DNA of 64,000 nt, taken from positions 1 to 64,000 of the forward strand of contig CALHLC010000013.1 of NCBI GenBank assembly GCA_938034385.1, in the 5' to 3' direction. Numbering within the stretch: position 1 is the stretch's first letter; each line of letters opens with the position of its first letter. This document shows, piece by piece, positions 51,318-63,695 of the stretch. Under the pieces are notes generated by a model. That model worked only from the letters and a program-made list of their open reading frames with translations, had not been told where the DNA came from and searched no databases. The position numbers and the translations under genes are program-made. This DNA comes from an uncultured Bacteriovoracaceae bacterium. GTDB taxonomy: Bacteria; Bdellovibrionota; Bacteriovoracia; Bacteriovoracales; Bacteriovoracaceae.

Positions 51318-52094
51318 TTGGATTTTTCAATTTGTGTCGAACCGTTATATCAAAATAAAGACTTTAAAAATAAATGTCAGGAGCTTCAAAGCTTAGGATT
51401 TTCTCATATTGAGTTTTGGAGCGCTGAGGATAAAGATTGGGAGTGGATGAGGGATGGCTTACCCGTAAAGGTTGCTCTTTTTTCTGGCCAGAGAGAAGGA
51501 ACCACTTACCTTAGTAATGATCGAGTAAGCTATCTTCAAGAGATTGAAAGAAATATTTTAAGAGCAAAATCAGTAGGTGTTGATACATTAATGCTTTTGA
51601 TGGATCCTTTGAATAATACTGGTGGAGTGGATAATCCGCATAATGAAATTTCATGGGATGAAAAAAGACAAGAGACGATTACAACCTTAAGAGAGGTTGC
51701 TAAACTAGGTGATCAACATAACTTTAATTTTGTTTTTGAACCACTAAATACGAAGCTTGATCACCCGGGATATTCTTTAGCTTCAACCTCTAGAGGAATA
51801 GAGATTATAAAAGGTGTAGACTCACCAAGAGTAAAGCTTTTATTTGATGCTTATCATATGGGAATGATGGGGGAGAATGTTTATGAACAAGTCGCTCAGA
51901 ATATGATGTATATAGGCCATATTCATTTGGCCAATTGGCCAGGTAGAACTGGGCCAGACTCAAGGGGTGAGTTTGATTTCAAAAAATTCATTTCAATTTT
52001 AAAAGATAATAACTACCAGGGTTTTGTTGGTTTTGAATACTTTCCAGAATCAGATTCTACAGATTCATTGAAAGCTATCAAGGAATTAATGTGA
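51318..52094 (+). CDS. hydroxypyruvate-isomerase-like TIM-barrel protein
   Basis: 258-aa xylose-isomerase-like TIM barrel. FVFEPLNTKLDHPGY, LLFDAYHMGMMGENVYE, GHIHLANWPGRTGPDSRGEFDF and GFVGFEYFPESD follow the hydroxypyruvate isomerase pattern, with Glu, Asp, His and Glu as metal ligands. The TTG start at 51318 has AGGAG eight bases upstream. It heads the inositol-type cluster, so it may instead act as an inosose isomerase or epimerase like IolI/IolH, which share the fold. It overlaps the next gene by 4 bases. Confidence 0.78.
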   Translation: MDFSICVEPLYQNKDFKNKCQELQSLGFSHIEFWSAEDKDWEWMRDGLPVKVALFSGQREGTTYLSNDRVSYLQEIERNILRAKSVGVDTLMLLMDPLNNTGGVDNPHNEISWDEKRQETITTLREVAKLGDQHNFNFVFEPLNTKLDHPGYSLASTSRGIEIIKGVDSPRVKLLFDAYHMGMMGENVYEQVAQNMMYIGHIHLANWPGRTGPDSRGEFDFKKFISILKDNNYQGFVGFEYFPESDSTDSLKAIKELM

Positions 52095-52912
52095 CAACTA
52101 ATACAACGAGAAAAAATATGACAGCACAATTTGTAGCTAAGACTCAAGTGAATATCAATGAATGTATTGACTGGGTTAAGCAAGCCGGAATGATGGCGTT
52201 AGAGCATTATAAAAAACCAGAGATGAGTTTGAAAGGAACTCAAGATTATTTATCTCAAGCTGATAAACAGATAGAAAACTTTCTTAAAGATAAATTATCT
52301 CATTCCTATCCAGGACATTCTATCTTAGCTGAGGAATCAGGCGGGAGCCTTGGTGAGAGTGGATTTATTATTGATCCTTTAGATGGAACGGAGAATTTTC
52401 TCAGAAAAATTCCTATGTGGGGAATATGTTTGAGTTTCGTCGAACATAAAAAAGTTACTTGGGGAATAATTTTCAATCCCGTCACTGATGAATTATTTGT
52501 TGGACAGCGAGGTAAAGGTGCAACTTTAAATGGTGAGAGGTTAGAAGTTTCTTCGGTTGAGAGTTTAAGTGAGTGTTGTGTTTGTCTTGGTCATTCTTAT
52601 AGAACTGATAATACTCACTTACATAGAATTAAAGGAGAGCTTATAAAAAATAAGGTGAGTCTGCGATTAGGTGGAAGTGGTGCTATAGGACTAGCTTATG
52701 TAGCTGCGGGTAGGTATGACGCTTTCATTGAAGAGCATCTTCAAATTTGGGACTTTATCCATGCAAGTATAATGATCGAAGAAGCTGGTGGATTTTTCTA
52801 TCCATTTGATATTGATAAATCTGTTACTGGTGGAGGAGTTGGAGTTGGAATCAATAAGCAACTTAAAAGTCAGATATTAGAAATTTATGAAACAACTAAG
52901 GAAGTAGTATGA
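52091..52912 (+). CDS. inositol-monophosphatase-family phosphatase of the inositol cluster
   Basis: 273 aa. SQADKQIENFL, AEESGG, IIDPLDGTENFLRKIP and the late QIWDFIHASIMIEEAGG carry the metal-binding and catalytic residues of the family, complete. GTG at 52091 overlaps the previous stop; an ATG at 52118 is a possible alternative. Inside an inositol-catabolic cluster with a sugar-phosphate-type importer, a natural role is to free inositol from an imported inositol phosphate. A histidinol-phosphatase-like role cannot be excluded by sequence. It overlaps iolG by 4 bases. Confidence 0.85.
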   Translation: MTTNTTRKNMTAQFVAKTQVNINECIDWVKQAGMMALEHYKKPEMSLKGTQDYLSQADKQIENFLKDKLSHSYPGHSILAEESGGSLGESGFIIDPLDGTENFLRKIPMWGICLSFVEHKKVTWGIIFNPVTDELFVGQRGKGATLNGERLEVSSVESLSECCVCLGHSYRTDNTHLHRIKGELIKNKVSLRLGGSGAIGLAYVAAGRYDAFIEEHLQIWDFIHASIMIEEAGGFFYPFDIDKSVTGGGVGVGINKQLKSQILEIYETTKEVV

Positions 52913-53910
52913 AGATAGGTTTATTAGGGGCCGGGAGAATAGGGAGCTTACACGCTGATAATTTAGTTAAATTTATTGATGGAGCTGAGCTTGTTCATAT
53001 TTGTGATCCCTTTAAAGAAAACGCAGCTAAACTTGGACAATCTCTTGGAGTTTCAAAAGTATCATCTGAAGCTACGGAAGTTTTTAATGATTCAGATGTT
53101 CAAGCGATTATGATTTGTTCATCTACTGATACTCATAGCAATTTTATTAGAAAAGCTGCTCTTGCTGGTAAACATATCTTTTGTGAAAAACCAATAGACT
53201 TTGATCAAGAAAATATTAAAAAAACTTTAGAGATAGTCAGAGCTTCTGGAAAGACTTTGCAAATTGGATTTAACAGAAGGTTTGATAGAAACTTTGCTGG
53301 CTTGAGAGAAGAAATAGTCGCTGGGAAAATTGGTGCGACTCATAGTTTAAAAATTACAAGTCGTGATCCATCACCACCACCTGTTAGTTATATAAAAGTC
53401 TCCGGTGGTCTATTTAATGATATGACTATCCATGACTTTGATATGGCCAGATTTATTATGGGAGAAGATGTTGTTGAAGTTTTTGCAAAAGGTGCTCACC
53501 TTGTCAGTGATGAAATCAAACAAGCTGGTGACATAGATTCAGCAATGATTACTTTAAAATTTAAAAGTGGTGCTTTAGGTATCATCGATAATTCTAGACA
53601 AGCTCTTTATGGATATGATCAAAGAATAGAGGCATTTGGAGAAAAAGGATGTTTATTTGCCAGAAATGAAAAGCAAAACACTGTTGATTATTGGGGGGCA
53701 CAGTCACTTAATAGAAAGCCATTACCTTTTTTCTTTCTTGAAAGGTATAGAGAATCTTATATTAATGAGATGAATGAATTTTTAAGTTCACTTAGAGAAC
53801 AAAGAAGTCCAAGTGTTACAGGAGAGGATGGCTTAGAGGCGTGTCGATTAGCTATTGCTTGTAATTTATCAATGAAAGAAAATAGAGCTGTTTCAATGGA
53901 GCAGATTTGA
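52909..53910 (+). CDS. iolG: myo-inositol 2-dehydrogenase (Gfo/Idh/MocA family)
   Basis: NAD-dependent oxidation of myo-inositol to scyllo-inosose. The 333-aa protein has the Rossmann GLLGAGRIGSLHADN (3-17), FCEKPIDFD with the active Lys, GFNRRFDRNFAGLR, and NDMTIHDFDMARFIMGEDVVEV with the Asp/His catalytic pair. These match IolG closely, including the DPSPPPVSYIKVSGG segment. Length normal. ATGA overlap with the phosphatase and TTGA with iolB. Confidence 0.9.
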   Translation: MKIGLLGAGRIGSLHADNLVKFIDGAELVHICDPFKENAAKLGQSLGVSKVSSEATEVFNDSDVQAIMICSSTDTHSNFIRKAALAGKHIFCEKPIDFDQENIKKTLEIVRASGKTLQIGFNRRFDRNFAGLREEIVAGKIGATHSLKITSRDPSPPPVSYIKVSGGLFNDMTIHDFDMARFIMGEDVVEVFAKGAHLVSDEIKQAGDIDSAMITLKFKSGALGIIDNSRQALYGYDQRIEAFGEKGCLFARNEKQNTVDYWGAQSLNRKPLPFFFLERYRESYINEMNEFLSSLREQRSPSVTGEDGLEACRLAIACNLSMKENRAVSMEQI

Positions 53911-54719
53911 ATCCTTTAATTAAAAAAGATAGAGAAGGTTTTAAAAATGGCTATAACTCTATTACTAAAGAAGGTGATAGTGATTTAGATACGATGATTG
54001 ACTTTGGGATCTTTAAACAAAGCTCTGGAGATGATCATTATGAAACTCATCCTAAAGAGAGTGTTTGGCTTTTAATGAGTGGAAGTGCAGATATCGAATT
54101 TGGTGGGATGAAAAAAACAATTAAGCGAGATTCAATCTTTGATGAAGCTCCAATTGCATTTCATGTTTGTGGAGATACTTCTGTTAAACTTATTGCAAAA
54201 TCTGACTGTGAATGGGCCGTATCAAGAACAACGAATTCAAAGCAATTTGGACCGATGTTTTTTAATGAAGATAATTGTTCTCCTGAATTTCGTGGTAAAG
54301 GACTTGTTCAAGATACTTGTCTTAGAAACGTAAGATTAATTTTTGATAAAACAAATCGACCAGAATCAAATTTAGTTATAGGTGAAGTTATTAATTTAGC
54401 AGGTAGATGGTCATCTTATCCTCCTCATCATCATGAGCAACCTGAAATATATCATTATAGATTTACTGAACCTCAAGGTTATGGGCATGGTGAGCTTGGT
54501 GAAGATGTTTATAAAGTAAAGCATTTCGATACAATTAAAATTACTGGAAATGTAGATCACTCTCAATGTAGTGCACCTGGATATGGAATGTATTATTTGT
54601 GGGTTGTTAGACATATAGATGGAAATCCATATACAGGTTTTGAATTCACTGAGGATCATAAATGGACTTTGGATGAGAAAAATCAAGGATGGATCCCAAA
54701 AGACTTTGAAGGAATTTAA
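53907..54719 (+). CDS. iolB: 5-deoxy-glucuronate isomerase
   Basis: IolB turns 5-deoxy-glucuronate into 2-deoxy-5-keto-gluconate. The 270-aa bicupin protein has the metal site SSYPPHHHEQPEIYHYRF and a conserved second part with DTIKITGNVDHSQCSAPGYGMYYLWVVRH and GFEFTEDHKW, close to known IolB. The TTG start overlaps the iolG stop. The next gene starts on the last base of its stop. Confidence 0.93.
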   Translation: MNPLIKKDREGFKNGYNSITKEGDSDLDTMIDFGIFKQSSGDDHYETHPKESVWLLMSGSADIEFGGMKKTIKRDSIFDEAPIAFHVCGDTSVKLIAKSDCEWAVSRTTNSKQFGPMFFNEDNCSPEFRGKGLVQDTCLRNVRLIFDKTNRPESNLVIGEVINLAGRWSSYPPHHHEQPEIYHYRFTEPQGYGHGELGEDVYKVKHFDTIKITGNVDHSQCSAPGYGMYYLWVVRHIDGNPYTGFEFTEDHKWTLDEKNQGWIPKDFEGI

Positions 54720-56587
54720 TGCAAACAATTGAGCTGACTTGCGCCAGTGCTATTATTAAGTTTTTAAAAAATCAATATATAGAAATTGATGGAGTGCAGT
54801 CTCAGTTTGTCACAGGATTAATGGGGATTTTTGGTCACGGTAATGTTGCTGGTCTTGGCCAGGCAATAGCAGAAAACCCTGAAGGAGATTTTCCATTTTT
54901 CCAAGCCAAAAATGAACAGGCCATGGTCCATAGTGCTATTGCTTATTCAAAGAGTTTAAATCGATCAAAAATTTATGCTTGTACTACTTCAGTTGGTCCT
55001 GGTGCTACAAATATGATTACTGGAGCAGCTACAGCAACGACTAATAGAATACCTGTTTTATTATTACCTAGTGATATTTTTGCTAATAGAATCCCTAATC
55101 CTGTTTTACAACAATTAGAACATCCATTAAGTCATGATATTAGTGTGAATGATTGTTTTAAGGCCGTTTCTAAATTTTGGGACAGAATAAATCGACCAGA
55201 GCAAATTTTAACAAGTCTCCCAGAAGCAATGAGAGTTTTAATGAATGCTTCTGAAACGGGAGCTGTGACAATTTGTCTACCTGAAGATGTACAGGCGCAA
55301 AAGTACCAATACCCAATAAGCTTTTTTGAAAAAAGAGTATATATTCAAAGAAGAATGCCACCGACAAGTTTTGAAATACAAAACTTAAAAAAAATATTAA
55401 GTGAAGCACAATCTCCCTTGATTGTTGCTGGTGGGGGAGTTCATTACTCTAATGCAAGTAGTGAGCTTAAAGAGTTTTGTGAGAAATATAAAATTGGCTG
55501 TAGTTTCACTCAAGCAGGCACAGGTTGCCTTGAATCAAATCATGAATATGCATTAGGTTCTATCGGAACAACTGGAAACTTAGCAGCAAACTCTATTGCG
55601 GAAAATGCTGATTTAGTTCTAGGGTTTGGATGTAGATATTCTGACTTTACAACTGCTTCTAAAACTCAATTTAAAAACTTAGATGTTAAATTTGTAAATA
55701 TTAATATTAATGAGATGGATGCTAAAAAGCATGGTGGTTTTTCTATTCCTGCTGATCTAAAAGCAACACTTGCTATTATGAATTCTGATCAGAGTCGTCA
55801 TGAAACAAGTAGTGAGTATCAAGGGAAGATAAAATCTCTAAAAGAAGCGTGGTTAAACGAATATCAAGAGTTAACTCATCCACAAAAAAAAGCTGATGAT
55901 AAATGGCATCAAAGTGAATTGATTAGAGTGTTAAATGACTTCACAGATGAGAGCTCTACTATTGTCCATGCTGCTGGAGGCCTACCAGGTGATCTTCATA
56001 AATTATGGAGATCAAAAGATGCCAAAGATTATCATAGTGAGTACGCATATTCCTGTATGGGCTATGAAATAGCTGGCGCCTTAGGAGTTAAGTTAGCTAA
56101 CCCTGATAGGGAGGTTTACGCCGTTTTAGGTGACGGGTCTTATCTTATGCTTAATCATGAAATCGTTACAAGCATTCAAGAAAATAAAAAGATTACCATT
56201 ATTTTAGTGAATAACTTTGGTTATCAATGCATTCATAATCTTCAACGAGGTTGTGGAGGAAGAAGCTTTGGAAATGAATTTAGATATAGAAAAGTTGATA
56301 AAGAATTAGATGGTGAGAGATTAAGCGTAGACTTTGCTCAGAATGCACAAAGTTTAGGAGCAAAAGTTTTTAATGCTTTTAATGAGGGCGAGTTTTTGGA
56401 TGCTTTAAAAGCAGCAAAAAATGAAAAAGGAACTAGCCTTATTTATACAGAAGTTGAACCCTCAACACCTCTTAAAGGATATTCTTGGTGGGACGTTCCT
56501 ATTAGTGAGATCTCAAATGATCAAAAGGTTCAGAAAACGTATAAAGAATATATTGAACAGAAAAAAGAACAAAGGTTTTATTATTAA
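54719..56587 (+). CDS. iolD: 3D-(3,5/4)-trihydroxycyclohexane-1,2-dione hydrolase
   Basis: Thiamine-diphosphate enzyme that opens the ring of the inositol-derived dione. The 622-aa protein has the pyrimidine-binding domain (FQAKNEQAMVHSAIAYSKS with the activating Glu), CTTSVGPGATNMITGAATAT, a central domain with LIVAGGGVHYS, and the cofactor motif GDGSYLMLNHEIVTSIQENKKITIILVNN. RGCGGRSFGNEFR near the end matches IolD. The first 40 residues also fit IolD. Length normal. Confidence 0.95.
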   Translation: MQTIELTCASAIIKFLKNQYIEIDGVQSQFVTGLMGIFGHGNVAGLGQAIAENPEGDFPFFQAKNEQAMVHSAIAYSKSLNRSKIYACTTSVGPGATNMITGAATATTNRIPVLLLPSDIFANRIPNPVLQQLEHPLSHDISVNDCFKAVSKFWDRINRPEQILTSLPEAMRVLMNASETGAVTICLPEDVQAQKYQYPISFFEKRVYIQRRMPPTSFEIQNLKKILSEAQSPLIVAGGGVHYSNASSELKEFCEKYKIGCSFTQAGTGCLESNHEYALGSIGTTGNLAANSIAENADLVLGFGCRYSDFTTASKTQFKNLDVKFVNININEMDAKKHGGFSIPADLKATLAIMNSDQSRHETSSEYQGKIKSLKEAWLNEYQELTHPQKKADDKWHQSELIRVLNDFTDESSTIVHAAGGLPGDLHKLWRSKDAKDYHSEYAYSCMGYEIAGALGVKLANPDREVYAVLGDGSYLMLNHEIVTSIQENKKITIILVNNFGYQCIHNLQRGCGGRSFGNEFRYRKVDKELDGERLSVDFAQNAQSLGAKVFNAFNEGEFLDALKAAKNEKGTSLIYTEVEPSTPLKGYSWWDVPISEISNDQKVQKTYKEYIEQKKEQRFYY

Positions 56588-57462
56588 TGATTAAATTAGG
56601 AATACACCCGATTAATTGGTCTAACGATGATTTTCATGAACTTGGTGGGAATATCAGTCTTGAAACTTGTCTATCACAAATGCAAAAGGCAGGCTTTGAA
56701 GGAACAGAGTTAGGAAATAAATTTCCAAAAGATTCTAAAACTCTAAATTCAACTTTAAAAAATTACCAATTAGAATTAATTTCTGGTTGGCATAGTACAT
56801 TTGTCGTTTCTCAAAGTATTGAATCTCAAATTGAGTCTTTAGATAAACATATTAAATTTTTAAAACAGGCCGGCTCAAGTGTTGTGATCTTAGCTGAATG
56901 TACTCGTGCTATTCATGGAATACCTAGAGCTTCATTAGAATTTGGTGAATTTGATTGGTTGACAGTAACTGAATGGGAAAAACTTTATAGAGGTCTTGAT
57001 AGGTTAGCACGTTTTTCTCTAGATCAAGGAATGAAACCTGTTTATCACCATCATATGGGGACAGTGGTTCAAACAAAAACTCATGTTAGATCTTTAATGA
57101 ATAATACCAAACATCTTCAATTACTTTTAGATACAGGGCATTTCATGGTTGCAGGTTGTGATCCTCTTGAGATTTATGATGAATTTAAAGATAGAATTAC
57201 TCATATCCATACAAAAAATATAAGACCATCTGTTAGAGAGGTTGCGCTGAAGAATCACTGGGATTTTAAAACTTCAGTGAGTAGAGGGATTTTTACCGTT
57301 CCGGGTGATGGAGGAATGGATTATCTTCCTTTGTTTGAAAGATTAAGAAGAGATCAATACAAGGGCTGGTTAGTAGTTGAAGCGGAACAAGACCCAAAGA
57401 TAGCCAACCCATTAGAATATGCAAAAATTGCCAGAGAATATTTTTTTAGAAATCTACAATAA
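56587..57462 (+). CDS. iolE: inosose dehydratase
   Basis: IolE dehydrates scyllo-inosose to the dione used by IolD. The 291-aa TIM-barrel protein opens GIHPINWSNDDFHELGGNIS, a hallmark of IolE, and has GFEGTELGNKFP, VYHHHMGTVVQT, LLLDTGHFMVAG and THIHTKNIRPSV with the metal ligands, ending GWLVVEAEQDP. One-base overlap with iolD. Confidence 0.94.
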   Translation: MIKLGIHPINWSNDDFHELGGNISLETCLSQMQKAGFEGTELGNKFPKDSKTLNSTLKNYQLELISGWHSTFVVSQSIESQIESLDKHIKFLKQAGSSVVILAECTRAIHGIPRASLEFGEFDWLTVTEWEKLYRGLDRLARFSLDQGMKPVYHHHMGTVVQTKTHVRSLMNNTKHLQLLLDTGHFMVAGCDPLEIYDEFKDRITHIHTKNIRPSVREVALKNHWDFKTSVSRGIFTVPGDGGMDYLPLFERLRRDQYKGWLVVEAEQDPKIANPLEYAKIAREYFFRNLQ

Positions 57463-57465
57463 AGG

Positions 57466-58530
57466 ATGAGAATGAATTCGAAAATGATTGAAACAAATGA
57501 TGTTGGGACTCAGTGGTGGAATGATTCCTGTAATATCACGGAATTGGAAGAAGCCGTTTTAAAAGGGGCCAGTGGAGCAACATCAAATCCAGTAATTGTT
57601 TTTAATGCTGTTAAAAATGATGAAGCTAGATGGAAGAGTGTTTTACAAAAAATCATAGGTGATCATCCTCATCACACTGAAGATGAGATTGCTTGGAAGT
57701 TAGTTGAAACAGTTTGTACTCAAGCTTCAAAAGTATTACTTCCAGTTTTTGAAAAAACATCTGGTATGAAAGGTAGATTATCAGTTCAAGTTCATCCTAA
57801 ATATTATAAAAACTCAGCTCTGATGACTGAGCATGGAGTAAAGCTATCAAAGCTAGCTCCTAATATTGCAATTAAAGCTCCATCTACAGTAGATGGGATT
57901 CAAACTTTTGAAGACCTAACAGCACAAGGTGTTTGTGTGAATGCAACAGTTAGTTTTTCTCTCTCTCAAGTGATTGCTTCAGCTGAAGCGATTGAGCGAG
58001 GATTAGTTCGAGCAAAAGCTAGTGGAATAGATACTTCAAAATTAACTCCTTATATCACTATTATGGTTGGTCGTATTGATGATCAATTAAGAAAAGAGAT
58101 GGATGAGAAAAATATGGCACTTGATCCAAGCGTTACTCATTGGGGGGGGGTGAGTGTTTTCAAAAAAGCTTATAAGATTTTTAAAGAACGTGGTTATAAG
58201 GCAAGGCTTTTAAGTGCTGCTTATAGAAATCCTATGCAGTGGAGTGAGCTAAATGGAGAAGACGTATTAATGACTATCCCTTATAAATGGTGGAACCGTT
58301 TTGATAAGAGTGATTTTAAAGTAGAAAATAAAATCAACGAACCAGTTGATCCATCTATTTTAAATACTTTGAGTGAAAACTTTGAAGACTTTAGAAAAGT
58401 TTATGACGAAACTGGAATTAATGTGAGTGACATAGAAAGCTATGGTGCTTGTAAATATACGATTAATCAATTCTTGGGTGGATACGATCAACTTATACAA
58501 TATGTTAGAAAACATATGATTTATAATTAG
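57466..58530 (+). CDS. transaldolase-family protein of the inositol cluster
   Basis: 354-aa class I aldolase barrel. WWNDSCNITELEEAV holds the conserved Asp (20), followed by GASGATSNP (34-42), GRLSVQVHP (103-111), the Schiff-base Lys137 in IAIKAPST, VNATVSFS with Thr161, and VGRID with Arg203. In ordinary transaldolases the GRLSVQVHP position has Glu (E-V-D); here it is Gln108, the residue type used by fructose-6-phosphate aldolases (from memory). The position of TalB Phe178 is Met200. It sits between iolE and the importer, where IolC and IolJ are missing. Inference: it releases malonate semialdehyde from 2-deoxy-5-keto-gluconate. GGATGAG precedes the start; a later ATG at 57472 is possible. 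Confidence 0.85.
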   Translation: MRMNSKMIETNDVGTQWWNDSCNITELEEAVLKGASGATSNPVIVFNAVKNDEARWKSVLQKIIGDHPHHTEDEIAWKLVETVCTQASKVLLPVFEKTSGMKGRLSVQVHPKYYKNSALMTEHGVKLSKLAPNIAIKAPSTVDGIQTFEDLTAQGVCVNATVSFSLSQVIASAEAIERGLVRAKASGIDTSKLTPYITIMVGRIDDQLRKEMDEKNMALDPSVTHWGGVSVFKKAYKIFKERGYKARLLSAAYRNPMQWSELNGEDVLMTIPYKWWNRFDKSDFKVENKINEPVDPSILNTLSENFEDFRKVYDETGINVSDIESYGACKYTINQFLGGYDQLIQYVRKHMIYN

Positions 58531-58537
58531 GAGCAAT

Positions 58538-59515
58538 ATGAAATATCTATTAATTTTACTTTTCTTATTTTCGTGTTCGAAATCAAACGAAAACACTGTC
58601 AACATTTATAGTAGTGTTGATGCTAAAGAAACTGCTCACTATGTGAAGAAGTTTGAAAAAGATACTGGTATCAAAGTTAATTGGGTTAGAATGTCTACCG
58701 GAGAAACTCTTGCAAGACTATTAGCAGAGAAAAATTCTCCTCAAGTATCAGTTTGGTTTGGTGGGACTAGTCCAGAATTTATTACAGCTACTAAAAGAGG
58801 ACTTTTAGAAGCTTATAAACCAGCTGTTAGTTATGAGCTTGATTCAAATCAAAGAGACAAAGATTATCATTGGACTGGAATTTATTTTGGGGCGATTGGT
58901 TTTGCTACAAATGATAAATTAATTAAAGATTTAGGAGTAAGTGCTCCAAGGTCTTGGGATGATTTATTAAAACCAGAATTTAAAGGAAAAGTCTCTATGG
59001 CCTATCCATATACTTCTGGAACTGCTTACACTGTAGTGTCTTCAATTTTACAAATGATGGGGGAGCAGAAAGGTTGGGCCTTCATTAAAAATCTGAATTC
59101 TCAAATTCATCATTATAATAAGTCAGGTTCAGCAGCTGTTACTCAAGCTGGAATTGGTGAGATTGCAGTTGGGATTTCTTTTTCTCATGACATTTTAAAG
59201 AAAGGAAAAGGAGCAGGTTATCCTGTGACTTTAAGTTTTCCAAATGAAGGAACTGGTTTTGAAGTTGGAGCCATGGCCCTAGTGAAAAATGGACCTAATA
59301 ATGCTTTAGGGAAAAAATTCATAGATTATTTTGCTTCAACAAAAGGGCAATCTGAGTTTAATAATTACTATAGAGTAGCATTAAATCCCGGAATTATTCC
59401 AAGTGAAGGAATGATTAAAAGATCTGAAGTGAATTTAATTGATTTTGATGCATCAAAGGCGGCCAATGAGCAAGCAAGAGTTATTGAGCAATGGAAGACA
59501 ACAGTTACTAACTAA
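58538..59515 (+). CDS. ABC-importer substrate-binding lipoprotein, AfuA-like
   Basis: 325 aa with lipoprotein signal MKYLLILLFLFSC. The mature protein is a type II periplasmic binding protein of the family with FbpA and AfuA: VNIYSSVDAKE, YPYTSGTAYTVVSSILQMMG, KSGSAAVTQAGIGEIAVGISFSHD and FPNEGTGFEVGAMALVKNG. The Tyr-Tyr pair that binds iron in FbpA is replaced by the SFSHD stretch. HD and the Glu of NEGTG are where AfuA, as I recall, contacts sugar phosphates. So a phosphorylated sugar or polyol is a better guess than iron. GGAG lies before the ATG. It overlaps the permease gene. Confidence 0.85.
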   Translation: MKYLLILLFLFSCSKSNENTVNIYSSVDAKETAHYVKKFEKDTGIKVNWVRMSTGETLARLLAEKNSPQVSVWFGGTSPEFITATKRGLLEAYKPAVSYELDSNQRDKDYHWTGIYFGAIGFATNDKLIKDLGVSAPRSWDDLLKPEFKGKVSMAYPYTSGTAYTVVSSILQMMGEQKGWAFIKNLNSQIHHYNKSGSAAVTQAGIGEIAVGISFSHDILKKGKGAGYPVTLSFPNEGTGFEVGAMALVKNGPNNALGKKFIDYFASTKGQSEFNNYYRVALNPGIIPSEGMIKRSEVNLIDFDASKAANEQARVIEQWKTTVTN

Positions 59516-61175
59516 GTCTTTTAGCTCGAAAAAAATTATAGATGATAGAAGACCGCTCTACTTATTGGTGGGAGCGATCTTTATTTTATTATTCTTATTC
59601 ATTGTTTATCCTTTATTTAAAGTTTTTTGGATGAGTGTTTATGATGATGGATTTACTCTGAAAAACTATCTCAAGTTCTTTTCAAGCTCATTTAACTTAA
59701 AGCCTTTATGGAATACTCTCATGCTCGCATCATCAGTTGCGATGCTTGGGACTTTTATTGGGTATGTATTTGCTTATGTTGTAACTAGATCAAGGTTTGT
59801 TGGGAAAAGATTTATAAAAATGTTCGGAACATTTCCTATGATTTCTCCTCCTTTTGTAATTTCTCTAGCTGCAATTATTTTATTAGGTCAAAATGGAACT
59901 TTGACTAGAAATATAATTACTCCTATTTTTGGAGAAGGTTTTAGTATTTATGGATTCAAAGGATTACTTCTTGTTGAGACAATGAGCTATTTCCCGACGG
60001 CCTTCTTGATTTTTGTTGGAGTCTTCTCCGCAATTGATCCTGTTCTAGAAGATGCCGCTCATAATATGGGAGCAAGTCCTTCTAAAACTTTTAGAGAAGT
60101 TATTTTTCCCTTAACAAAGCCTGGGATTTATTCTTCTTTATTGCTTTTATTCATAGAATCAATTGCTGACTTTGGAAACCCACTTGTTTTATCAGGTGGA
60201 TTTAAAGTGTTATCGGTAGAAGCATATTTGAAAATTACAGGTGAGTTTGATCTTCCAATGGGAGCAACCATTTCTATGGTTTTATTGGTGCCAGCGATGA
60301 TCGCCTTTTTTGTTCAAAAGTATTATGTAGATAAAAAATCATTTGTAACTTTGACTGGGAAAAGCTCAACAACTAGTTTTTTCAAATCACACTCACTAAT
60401 AACTAATATTTTCTTAGGAAGTGTGATCTTTGTAACTATGTCTATGATTATTCTTTTTTATGGGGCAGTTGTTTGGGGATCTTTTGTAAAGGTTTGGGGA
60501 GCTGATCACACTTTTACTTTATCAAATTATTTTACAGGAGTAGAAGATTCTTGGAATTATATTAAAGATACATTCATTTTATCTGCTGTGGCTACACCTC
60601 TAACAGGTTTGATGGCCTTAGTGATATCCTATTTAATTGTTAGAAAAAAGTTTGTTGGTAAAAATATAATGGAGGTCACTTCCATGCTAAGCTTTGCTGT
60701 ACCAGGTACAGTAGTCGGTATTGGATATATTCTTGCTTTTAATGATTCACCTTTTTTACTAACTGGAACTAGTGCTATCATTATCATTTTATTTATTTTT
60801 AGAAATATGCCTGTTGGAATTCGATCAAGTATCGCTAGTCTAAAACAACTTGATCCTGCAATAGAGGAGGCTGCTATGAATTTAGGGGCCAATACTGTTA
60901 CTACATTAAAAGATATTACTGCACCTTTATTAGCACCAGCATTTTTTTCAGGTGTAGCCTATAGCTTTGTTCGTTGCTTAACTGCAATTTCAGCAATCAT
61001 TTTTGTCGTTTCAGGTTCTTGGAATTTATTAACCGTTTCATTATTAGGACAAGTTGAAAATGGTCATTTATCTGTAGCTTGTGCCATATGTGTTTTATTA
61101 ATTTTAACAGCAGGTAGTATTTTAGGAATTATGCAGTTTTTTATATATCGAAAAGGTATAAAACAAAGAGATTAG
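59466..61175 (+). CDS. ABC-importer fused permease (FbpB/AfuB type)
   Basis: 569 aa with about 12 membrane segments in two halves. Each half has its ATPase-contact motif: DPVLEDAAHNMGASPSKTF and DPAIEEAAMNLGANTVTTL (EAA loops), so this is the fused two-domain permease of this importer family. I start it at the ATG at 59466, with AAGG six bases upstream, inside the end of the binding-protein gene; an ATG at 59439 and a TTG at 59484 are alternatives. Works with the flanking binding protein and ATPase. Confidence 0.9.
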   Translation: MSKQELLSNGRQQLLTKSFSSKKIIDDRRPLYLLVGAIFILLFLFIVYPLFKVFWMSVYDDGFTLKNYLKFFSSSFNLKPLWNTLMLASSVAMLGTFIGYVFAYVVTRSRFVGKRFIKMFGTFPMISPPFVISLAAIILLGQNGTLTRNIITPIFGEGFSIYGFKGLLLVETMSYFPTAFLIFVGVFSAIDPVLEDAAHNMGASPSKTFREVIFPLTKPGIYSSLLLLFIESIADFGNPLVLSGGFKVLSVEAYLKITGEFDLPMGATISMVLLVPAMIAFFVQKYYVDKKSFVTLTGKSSTTSFFKSHSLITNIFLGSVIFVTMSMIILFYGAVVWGSFVKVWGADHTFTLSNYFTGVEDSWNYIKDTFILSAVATPLTGLMALVISYLIVRKKFVGKNIMEVTSMLSFAVPGTVVGIGYILAFNDSPFLLTGTSAIIIILFIFRNMPVGIRSSIASLKQLDPAIEEAAMNLGANTVTTLKDITAPLLAPAFFSGVAYSFVRCLTAISAIIFVVSGSWNLLTVSLLGQVENGHLSVACAICVLLILTAGSILGIMQFFIYRKGIKQRD

Positions 61176-61187
61176 AAAAGGAATTAT

Positions 61188-62213
61188 ATGAGTTTATTAA
61201 TTAGAGATCTTCATAAGAGGTTTAAGACTGATGATGGAAAAAATTTTAGTGCTCTGAAAAATATTAACCTAGAAATTACAGATGGTGAGTTTTTTACACT
61301 TCTTGGCCCAAGTGGATGTGGAAAAACAACACTTTTGAGAATCATCGCTGGTTTTGAAAGGCCAAGTGAAGGAAATTTATATTTTAATGGAAACGATATT
61401 TCTCATAAGGCTGTCTTTGAGAGAAATTTTCCTATGGTTTTTCAATCTTATGCTTTATTTCCACATATGAGTGTGACTGAAAATATCGGTTATGGATTAA
61501 AACAAAAAGGTGTTGATAAAGCTACCATTGCTAAAAAAGTAAATAGAATCATTGAAATGACTGGGCTTACGCCTAATAAAGATAAATATCCTCATCAAAT
61601 GTCAGGAGGACAACAACAAAGAGTTGCCCTTGCTAGAGCAATAGTGATGGAACCAGAAGTGATGCTCTTTGATGAACCACTTTCAAATCTAGATGCCAAT
61701 CTTAGAATTTCTATGAGGCAAGAAATTAGAAGAATTCAAAAAGATTTTGGAATTACAGTAGTGTATGTAACTCATGATCAAGAAGAAGCGATGGCCGTTA
61801 GTGATAAAATCGTTGTCATGAATCATGGGATCATTGAACAAGTTGGCTCTCCAATTGAAATTTATTCAAAGCCACAAAGTGAATTTGTAGCTAATTTTGT
61901 TGGGCAAGCTAATATTATCCCAGCTAAAATAGTTGGAGAGAGAGTTAATATCTTAGGCGTAGATTATAATAATAAAATTTCTATTGATTTAAACAAAGTG
62001 ATCTCACGACCTGAGTTTGTAAAAATTCATGATAGCGGAAATCATACCGGTGTCATTACAAATTCTACTTACCTTGGAGCAAATTGGAATCTTAAGGTGA
62101 AAGTATTGGATGAAGAAATCTCGATACTTGCTCCTATCTTTGGAAACCAAAACTTCGATGTGAATCAAAAGATAAGTTTTTCTTTTGATAGCTCAACTCT
62201 ACATTTTATTTAA
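61188..62213 (+). CDS. ABC-importer ATPase (FbpC/AfuC type)
   Basis: 341 aa. Walker A GPSGCGKTT at 40-48, Q-loop in MVFQSYALFPHMSVTENI, signature MSGGQQQRVALARA, Walker B VMLFDEPLSNLD, and the H-loop YVTHDQEEAMAVSD. The C-terminal 100 residues form the TOBE-type regulatory domain of this group. Shares the operon with the importer subunits, 12 bases after the permease. AAAAGGA precedes the ATG. Confidence 0.93.
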   Translation: MSLLIRDLHKRFKTDDGKNFSALKNINLEITDGEFFTLLGPSGCGKTTLLRIIAGFERPSEGNLYFNGNDISHKAVFERNFPMVFQSYALFPHMSVTENIGYGLKQKGVDKATIAKKVNRIIEMTGLTPNKDKYPHQMSGGQQQRVALARAIVMEPEVMLFDEPLSNLDANLRISMRQEIRRIQKDFGITVVYVTHDQEEAMAVSDKIVVMNHGIIEQVGSPIEIYSKPQSEFVANFVGQANIIPAKIVGERVNILGVDYNNKISIDLNKVISRPEFVKIHDSGNHTGVITNSTYLGANWNLKVKVLDEEISILAPIFGNQNFDVNQKISFSFDSSTLHFI

Positions 62214-62222
62214 GGAGACTAT

Positions 62223-63695
62223 ATGAATAACTTAGAATTTTCCAAGCAACCTCAACCTGCACTTAATTTTTTAGATAATAATTGGGTGAAAGGATCTGGT
62301 GATAAATTTGAGATTCGTTCACCTTATACAGGGGAATCTATTGGTCATAGCTATGAATCTACAAGTGAAGATTTAGATCAAATAGTTTATAGTGCAAAAA
62401 TTGCTTTTAAGGCTTGGTCACAAACTCCTCTTAAAGAGCGAACAAGAATAATGTTTAATTTAAGAACAATTTTATTAAGAGATATAGATAAAATTTCAAA
62501 TCTAATTTGTATAGAAAATGGAAAGATCTTCTCTGAGGCAAAGGCTGAAGTGATGAAAGGTATAGAGGTTCTAGAGTTTGCTACCAGCCTACAAAATAGT
62601 GACTCAATGACAAAGATGGAAGTTTCTCGAGGTGTGAGTTGTGAATATAGAAGAGAAGCGATGGGAGTTGTTGCTAGTATTACTCCTTTTAACTTCCCGG
62701 CCATGGTTCCAATGTGGACTATGCCTATAGCCATTACTTTAGGAAATACTTATATTTGGAAGCCTTCAGAAAAAACTCCTTTAACTGCCATTAGCATTGC
62801 TAATGCTTTTAAAGAAGCAGGTTTACCATCTGGAGTTTTATCAGTTTATCAAGGATCTAAATCTTCGGTAGAAGCAATTATTAATCATCCAGATATTAAT
62901 ACCATAAGCTTTGTTGGATCCACTAAGGTTGCAAAAATTGTTTATGATCAGGCCTCAAGAAAATATAAAAGAGTTCTAGCTCTAGGTGGAGCTAAGAATC
63001 ATATTATTCTTTTACCAGATGCTGATCCTAATATTAGTGGGCGAGGAATTAGTGATTCATTTACAGGTTGTGCTGGTCAAAGATGTATGGCCGCAAGTGT
63101 TTTATTAGCTGTAGGTAAGGTTGATCACTTATTAGATAAAATTGTTGAGCGTGCTGATTCACATCACTTAGGTGTTGGAATGGGAGCGGTCATTTCTAAA
63201 GAGCAAGTGAGCTTTTTAAACACAGCAATTGATAAGGCCCTGAGTGAAGGGGCTAATCTTTTATATGATGGTAGAGGAAAATCTAGTCCAACCAATGGAG
63301 GGTATTGGTTTGGTCCTGTTATATTAGATAATGTTAAGCCTGATTCATATGTAGCTACTACGGAATTGTTTGGTCCTATTTTATCAATTATTAGATGTGA
63401 CTCAATTAGTAGTGCAATGATCATTGAGAATTCAAATGAATATGGAAATGCTTGTTCAGTATTTACATCAACAGGCTCACTTGCTGAAAAAGTAATTTCG
63501 AGTGCTAAAGCAGGGATGGTTGGAGTTAATATAGGTGTGCCGGTACCGAGAGAACCTTTTTCTTTTGGTGGGATTGCGGCCTCAAAGTTTGGTCATGGAG
63601 ATATTACTGGGATGCCTAGTTTAAATTTTTGGTCTCAGTTAAAGAAAGTGACTATCAAATGGGAATCTCAAAGTGATGAGAATTGGATGAGCTAA
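62223..63695 (+). CDS. iolA: malonate/methylmalonate-semialdehyde dehydrogenase (CoA-acylating)
   Basis: IolA/MmsA oxidises malonate semialdehyde to acetyl-CoA with release of CO2. The 490-aa ALDH-fold protein has ITPFNFPAMVPMWTMPIAI, FVGSTKVAK, LGGAKNHIILLPDAD, the active Cys in SFTGCAGQRCMAASV, and the MmsA ending GMVGVNIGVPVPREPFSFGG and KFGHGDITG. The usual ALDH general-base Glu in the LGG region is absent (AKN), which is normal for CoA-dependent MmsA. AAGGAG precedes the ATG. It is the last catabolic enzyme in the cluster. Confidence 0.93.
   Translation: MNNLEFSKQPQPALNFLDNNWVKGSGDKFEIRSPYTGESIGHSYESTSEDLDQIVYSAKIAFKAWSQTPLKERTRIMFNLRTILLRDIDKISNLICIENGKIFSEAKAEVMKGIEVLEFATSLQNSDSMTKMEVSRGVSCEYRREAMGVVASITPFNFPAMVPMWTMPIAITLGNTYIWKPSEKTPLTAISIANAFKEAGLPSGVLSVYQGSKSSVEAIINHPDINTISFVGSTKVAKIVYDQASRKYKRVLALGGAKNHIILLPDADPNISGRGISDSFTGCAGQRCMAASVLLAVGKVDHLLDKIVERADSHHLGVGMGAVISKEQVSFLNTAIDKALSEGANLLYDGRGKSSPTNGGYWFGPVILDNVKPDSYVATTELFGPILSIIRCDSISSAMIIENSNEYGNACSVFTSTGSLAEKVISSAKAGMVGVNIGVPVPREPFSFGGIAASKFGHGDITGMPSLNFWSQLKKVTIKWESQSDENWMS

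Follow-up and report, generated by a model that had tools for sequence, protein, structure and literature searches.

The window analyzed here, a 64,000-nucleotide stretch of contig CALHLC010000013.1 from an uncultured Bacteriovoracaceae bacterium, a marine member of a predator group, carries at positions 51318-63695 a run of eleven tightly packed genes, all on the + strand. Neighboring genes are separated by gaps of −77 to +12 nucleotides, and judged from these gaps the run is operon-like. It combines homologs of the enzymes of myo-inositol catabolism with an importer and with the gene for a 354-amino-acid transaldolase-family (TAL_FSA) protein, which we call TAL (57466-58530; PF00923, 150 bits) and whose place in inositol breakdown is the subject of this analysis.

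An inositol operon conserved between species

Three of the inositol genes together pass their NCBIfam equivalog cut-offs: IolG, the inositol 2-dehydrogenase (52909-53910; TIGR04380, 448 bits against a cut-off of 355), IolD, the trihydroxycyclohexanedione hydrolase (54719-56587; TIGR04377, 857 against 715), and IolE, the inosose dehydratase (56587-57462; TIGR04379, 354 against 290). The fourth is an IolB-like cupin of the KduI/IolB family (53907-54719; PF04962, 178 bits) from a divergent subfamily that scores 89 bits on TIGR04378, for which the cut-off is 205; we expect it to be a 5-deoxyglucuronate isomerase that would produce 2-deoxy-5-keto-D-gluconate (DKG). The fifth, at the far end of the run, is an IolA-like, CoA-acylating (methyl)malonate semialdehyde dehydrogenase (MMSDH) (62223-63695; TIGR01722, 438 bits, just under the cut-off of 448.5). 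The preliminary description of this DNA had reported such a same-strand run of inositol-gene homologs with an importer and a transaldolase-family gene, and all of them lie where it had placed them, with the qualification that IolB is IolB-like and that IolA scores slightly below its threshold.

The entire gene run, in the same order, is kept in a second species, a Bacteriovoracaceae metagenome-assembled genome (MAG) of the same genus that is the nearest relative (L011/G068) and whose TAL is 91.5% identical. Across the nine operon genes measured between the two, the ratio of nonsynonymous to synonymous substitution rates (dN/dS) ranges from 0.04 to 0.13; TAL, at 0.058, is among the better-conserved genes of the operon and is under strong purifying selection. 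The conservation of the operon in a second species at low dN/dS and the recurrence of the association across phyla, described below, exclude a chance assembly of the gene run.

The divergent IolB-like protein belongs to a coherent subfamily (the window gene and those of L012, L017, L030, L034, L042, L059, L159, and L161) whose members score 82 to 108 bits on TIGR04378 and will escape automatic annotation. That this divergence of IolB might have caused the enzyme swap proposed below was considered and rejected, since the same subfamily also stands beside IolC (L159) and thus occurs in clusters with and without that kinase.

Absence of IolC and IolJ from the host genome

The operon resembles the Bacillus/Salmonella-type myo-inositol pathway in uniting IolG, IolE, IolD, an IolB-like isomerase, and an IolA-like dehydrogenase. 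That pathway, however, also has the DKG kinase IolC together with the DKG-phosphate aldolase IolJ or a DUF2090 domain, whereas the host genome lacks these and a transaldolase-family enzyme is inserted. The host genome is 99.3% complete, and we probed its content family by family. DUF2090 has zero matches in it, the IolC model TIGR04382 finds no match at an E value of ≤1e−50, and domain and NCBIfam scans of the operon find no kinase gene between 51318 and 63695. Two PfkB kinases lie on other contigs, one HldE-like and the other ribokinase/nucleoside-kinase-like and adjoining an asparaginyl-tRNA synthetase gene; we rejected both as IolC, since their TIGR04382 scores of 91 and 46 bits fall far short of the cut-off of 300. 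No dedicated IolJ was found in the genome, whose sole class II aldolase is a generic fructose-bisphosphate aldolase (FBA) on another contig, unlinked to the operon. The absence of IolC and IolJ noted in the preliminary description therefore holds across the whole genome in the TIGR04382, DUF2090, and class II aldolase scans. The genome does hold a second TAL_FSA gene (L003/L180); its product is a short, canonical transaldolase that has the catalytic Glu and is closest to the Bacillus subtilis and Thermotoga enzymes. With this separate transaldolase in the host, the pentose phosphate pathway does not require the operon TAL.

Fold and active site of TAL

An AlphaFold2 model of TAL (pLDDT, 95.5) has the transaldolase fold. 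The transaldolases of the Corynebacterium glutamicum/Neisseria gonorrhoeae type (3r5e and 3clm) are closest in fold, with TM scores of ~0.8, and similar in length; their sequence identity to TAL, however, is ~20%, and their catalytic Glu and phosphate-site Ser are replaced in all TAL members. Variants of TalB carrying E96Q/F178Y are also among the structural matches of the model.

We mapped active-site residues in all 89 members of the TAL clade delimited below, with positions referenced to TalB and to fructose-6-phosphate aldolase (FSA). In window numbering, the Schiff-base lysine K137, the donor-site pair D20 and N41, T161, R203, and R254 are kept in 89/89. Three departures are equally fixed, each in 89/89 members: Gln (Q108) at the TalB Glu96/FSA Gln59 position, the residue that FSA itself has; Met (M200) at the TalB Phe178/FSA Tyr131 position; and Ala (A252) at the TalB phosphate-site Ser226, with both anion-site arginines (TalB Arg181/Arg228) retained. 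TAL thus has the fold and the Schiff-base lysine that define a transaldolase (EC 2.2.1.2) and lacks its Glu96 and Ser226. With FsaA it shares the Schiff-base lysine, the donor-site Asp/Asn, the Thr, and Gln59 in place of Glu; it differs in length (~350 residues versus ~220), in having Met for the proton shuttle Tyr131, and in having R254 where FsaA has Lys.

The donor ketose docks in TalB and FSA with its free hydroxymethyl (CH2OH) end bound by the Asp/Asn pair. If D20 and N41 do likewise, DKG phosphorylated at C6 should not fit, and free DKG should. Read from C6 in Fischer projection, DKG shows the C3/C4 (3,4-threo) configuration of fructose, so that the fructose-like configuration ascribed to it in the preliminary description agrees with established stereochemistry. 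At the other end of the substrate, the change of Ser226 to Ala with both arginines kept would suit a tail that ends in a carboxylate, not in a phosphate.

Distribution and gene neighborhoods of the TAL family

We collected relatives by a genome scan with a three-sequence alignment and analyzed the best 80 of 451. In a maximum-likelihood tree, 89 sequences, the window TAL included, form one clade (support, 98/96) that is distinct from TalB, from Shinella proteins, and from a Spirochaete sister group. This clade carries no name and spans more than 15 phyla. Counted over 88 nonduplicate loci, and as lower bounds given the short contigs, at least two of iolB, iolD, and iolE lie within 10 kb of TAL in 42 and all three in 35; IolA lies within that distance in 25 and IolC in only 3. 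Typical gene orders are iolG-iolB-iolD-iolE-TAL-iolA in Treponema and iolD-iolE-TAL-iolB in Marinimicrobia. Members of the family thus recur across many phyla in inositol clusters that mostly lack IolC, in line with what the survey suggested in the preliminary description was meant to show. At five loci TAL is paired with IolA with no iolB, iolD, or iolE nearby, which ties TAL to malonate semialdehyde; these loci suggest that TAL always yields malonate semialdehyde and that DKG may have further sources too. One of them, L064 (1106-4581), has a mannonate/gluconate-dehydrogenase-type short-chain dehydrogenase/reductase (SDR) followed by TAL and IolA, with an ABC sugar importer, and possibly serves the catabolism of another deoxy-aldonate by the same cleavage.

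A search of viral contigs returned no TAL relatives. Among plasmids, the sole close family member is on Clavibacter pCI3 (two records; 39.6% identity), in an inositol cluster that also holds iolC. The Shinella proteins (28% identity) were set aside, as they fall outside the clade and beside an acetoin-dehydrogenase-like complex; on the Shinella plasmid locus L009 (11771-20311), the distant TAL-family gene lies inside an E1/E2/E3 cluster of that kind with a triose-phosphate-isomerase-like gene, an unusual context. Members of the sister clade of the TAL family (L174, L175, L176, L177, and L178) likewise have the Gln and the Met, with Gly or Ala at Ser226, and those of L174 and L175 adjoin split transketolase genes.

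Co-occurrence of TAL, IolD, and IolC

At the genome level, IolD is present in 64 of 79 TAL-positive genomes (61/76 plus three more), and 49 of these 64 lack IolC, which we called present only above its TIGR04382 cut-off. The incompleteness of MAGs inflates the absence of IolC from any single genome but does not plausibly account for 49 of them. For comparison, in a published survey unmatched to ours in taxa and method, a fourth core gene was missing in 1,024 − 810 = 214 of 7,384 iol-positive species, which was put down to assembly or frameshift problems (PMC9430895).

For a set unbiased with respect to TAL, we drew 393 Spirochaetota evenly across the phylum and called TAL at ≥470 bits, below which there is a clear gap down to 280 bits. 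IolD occurs in 23 of these genomes, TAL in 11, and both in 8 (Fisher P = 6e−9). IolC is found in 1 of the 8 genomes with TAL and IolD versus 5 of the 15 with IolD and no TAL, and ten IolD-positive genomes have neither.

A proposed kinase-free route from inositol to acetyl-CoA

From these data we propose, with a probability of roughly 0.7, that the operon degrades inositol with TAL cleaving unphosphorylated DKG in place of IolC and the aldolase. The substrate would probably be taken up as an inositol phosphate, from which the phosphate is then removed. IolG, IolE, IolD, and IolB would convert the inositol to DKG, and TAL would stand in for both the DKG kinase and the DKG-phosphate aldolase. K137 would form a Schiff base with the ketone of DKG, the C3-C4 bond would be broken, and the malonate semialdehyde so freed would be turned into acetyl-CoA by IolA. 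The lysine-bound dihydroxyacetone (DHA) unit would then be either hydrolyzed and released as DHA, in an aldolase mode, or moved to glyceraldehyde 3-phosphate (G3P) to give fructose 6-phosphate (F6P), in a transaldolase mode. The gene content, the lack of IolC, the recurrent gene association, the fixed residues, and the fold are observed; the substrate, reaction, and products assigned to TAL, and the uptake of a phosphate ester, are what we infer.

Several observations weigh against this proposal. IolC adjoins TAL in L048 and L053 and coexists with it in 15 of the 64 TAL- and IolD-positive genomes. The family may also act on different or further substrates, given that 15 of the 79 TAL-positive genomes have no IolD. 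The catalytic Tyr131 of FSA is Met in TAL, which therefore fully reproduces the proton relay of neither an aldolase nor a transaldolase. A strict one-for-one rule, under which the presence of TAL entails the absence of IolC, is rejected (P = 0.37 within the IolD-positive Spirochaetota), exclusivity falling short of significance because of the ten genomes with neither gene; inositol clusters that lack IolC thus exist without TAL as well. Finally, a DHA kinase was found neither in the window genome nor in any of the 17 tested genomes of its subclade (17/17), in a search that did not extend to glycerol kinase (GlpK), which argues against free DHA, and so against the aldolase mode, unless another kinase such as GlpK serves. 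The proposal outlasts every computational test that we ran except strict exclusivity, and it stands as a prediction.

The failure of one-for-one replacement leads instead to a picture of several alternative pathway endings. Among the ten Spirochaetota with neither IolC nor TAL, five have clusters with a phosphoglycerate-kinase (PGK)-like gene (L161, 12380-14707; L146, 4349-6780; L153; L160; L156), three of which also have an archaeal-type type II glyceraldehyde-3-phosphate dehydrogenase (GAPDH); this variant possibly converts malonate semialdehyde to malonyl phosphate and thence yields ATP, or provides some other route for DKG. Two more (L150, 4146-5974, and L151) have iolB-D-E-G clusters near split transketolase genes (N and C halves), and by analogy a counterpart of the transketolase (sulfo-TK) branch of sulfoglycolysis is conceivable there.

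Fate of the three-carbon unit and competing explanations

Whether the DHA unit is released or transferred to G3P we judge to be roughly even. A serious, if tentative, candidate is that TAL is an FSA-like DKG aldolase that frees DHA, which DhaK or GlpK then phosphorylates. The invariant Gln at the Glu96/Gln59 position favors hydrolysis to DHA, swaps of water-organizing residues interconvert aldolase and transaldolase activity according to the part of PMC13259622 that cites Stellmacher, and TalB E96Q/F178Y variants are among the structural matches of the TAL model. A DHA kinase is present in 19 of the 51 TAL-positive genomes tested, but it is not enriched with TAL (7 of the 15 IolD-positive, TAL-negative genomes have one), and we rejected it as a partner gene because its presence fails to track TAL; its absence from the window genome and subclade and the Met at Tyr131 also count against the release of DHA.

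Transfer of the DHA unit from DKG to G3P, which would yield malonate semialdehyde and F6P, is likewise possible, and we hold it tentatively. It would spare the host the DHA kinase that it lacks, and the acceptor-site arginines R203 and R254 are invariant. Its precedent is the sulfo-TAL enzyme SftT of sulfoglycolysis, in which 6-deoxy-6-sulfofructose (SF) and G3P give sulfolactaldehyde (SLA) and F6P (PMC11968277). SftT resembles TAL, as proposed here, in being a transaldolase-family enzyme that is encoded in a kinase-free cluster and cleaves an unphosphorylated, 6-substituted ketose whose tail is anionic. SftT, however, is a small, FSA-sized protein that acts on SF, whereas TAL belongs to a separate 354-residue family in which three key positions hold Gln, Met, and Ala. 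Two of these, the Gln for the catalytic Glu96 and the Ala for the phosphate-site Ser226, speak against a transaldolase in every member of the family.

It is unlikely that TAL is an ordinary transaldolase serving pentose phosphate flux while DKG is phosphorylated by an unrecognized kinase and cleaved by a housekeeping class II aldolase. The generic FBA and the ribokinase-like PfkB elsewhere in the genome could supply such activities, and some genomes do hold both IolC and TAL; yet the genome has its separate canonical transaldolase, TAL departs uniformly at Glu96, Phe178, and Ser226, and the PfkB kinases score far below the IolC cut-off and lie away from an operon that is itself kinase-free. 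Equally improbable is that TAL acts within the pathway on another ketose, for example an isomer arising from scyllo- or chiro-inositol or some other deoxy-hexulosonate, with DKG handled otherwise: the subthreshold IolB-like protein, the TAL-IolA loci such as L064, and the TAL-positive genomes without IolD favor it, but TAL also occurs alongside canonical IolB (L079, 351 bits, and L008, 237 bits, on TIGR04378), and the same IolB-like subfamily accompanies IolC in L159.

Flanking genes and a putative uptake system

The run holds further genes besides TAL and the inositol genes. The first gene encodes a Hyi-like, or hydroxypyruvate-isomerase-like, TIM barrel of the AP_endonuc_2 family (51318-52094; PF01261, 108 bits; best NCBIfam match OH-pyruv-isom, 114 bits against a cut-off of 353), possibly an inosose or keto-acid isomerase. 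The second encodes an inositol-monophosphatase-family phosphatase (IMPase) (52091-52912; PF00459, 162 bits; below all NCBIfam equivalog cut-offs), which would dephosphorylate imported inositol phosphate. Downstream of TAL lies an AfuABC-like importer (58538-62213) made up of an AfuA-like periplasmic binding protein (58538-59515; best PDB match 4r72, AfuA, 178 bits), a fused ABC permease (59439-61175), assigned by its open reading frame and position and with homologs beside the binding protein in L011, L030, and L082, and a PhnT2/FbpC-like ABC_tran ATPase (61188-62213; TIGR03265, 382 bits against a cut-off of 458).

In AfuA, H205, D206, and E229 are essential (PMC4546632). Aligned to 4r72, the window protein has the motifs FSHD and NEGTG (H217, D218, and E237) and keeps the SGTA phosphate motif; it thus carries the defining His/Asp/Glu sugar motif of sugar-phosphate binders, in which it differs from the related pyridoxal-phosphate binder. 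AfuABC imports hexose phosphates, whereas for the window importer, because it adjoins the IMPase and the inositol genes, we propose an inositol phosphate; together the IMPase and importer are, as a reasonable inference from sequence, candidates for the uptake of inositol phosphate or glycerophosphoinositol. L030 and L082 likewise have related importers in their TAL clusters, although these motif strings are missing from the L030 binding protein.

Implications for inositol catabolism

Inositol and its phosphates rank among the most plentiful polyols in soils, sediments, and the gut, and surveys take iolC as a core marker of the pathway. Our searches of the open-licence literature turned up no account of a transaldolase acting in inositol catabolism, and the preliminary description likewise knew of none; the recurrence of the TAL swap in many phyla points to an undescribed ending of inositol breakdown. 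We lean toward the view that the long TAL class as a whole, in its more than 15 phyla, comprises DKG aldolases or DKG:G3P dihydroxyacetone transferases of a kinase-free inositol branch, which in Spirochaetota would stand beside the PGK-like/GAPDH-II and split-transketolase variants, the TAL and transketolase variants mirroring the corresponding branches of sulfoglycolysis. Part of the survey clusters that miss one core gene (PMC9430895) may, on this account, use a different enzyme rather than come from broken genomes. If the proposal is true, inositol use would have been wrongly scored in many Marinimicrobia, Spirochaetota, Acidobacteriota, and other MAGs, a large TAL family that lacks annotation would acquire a function, and inositol catabolism would be the second pathway, besides sulfoglycolysis, in which transaldolase chemistry replaces phosphorylation.

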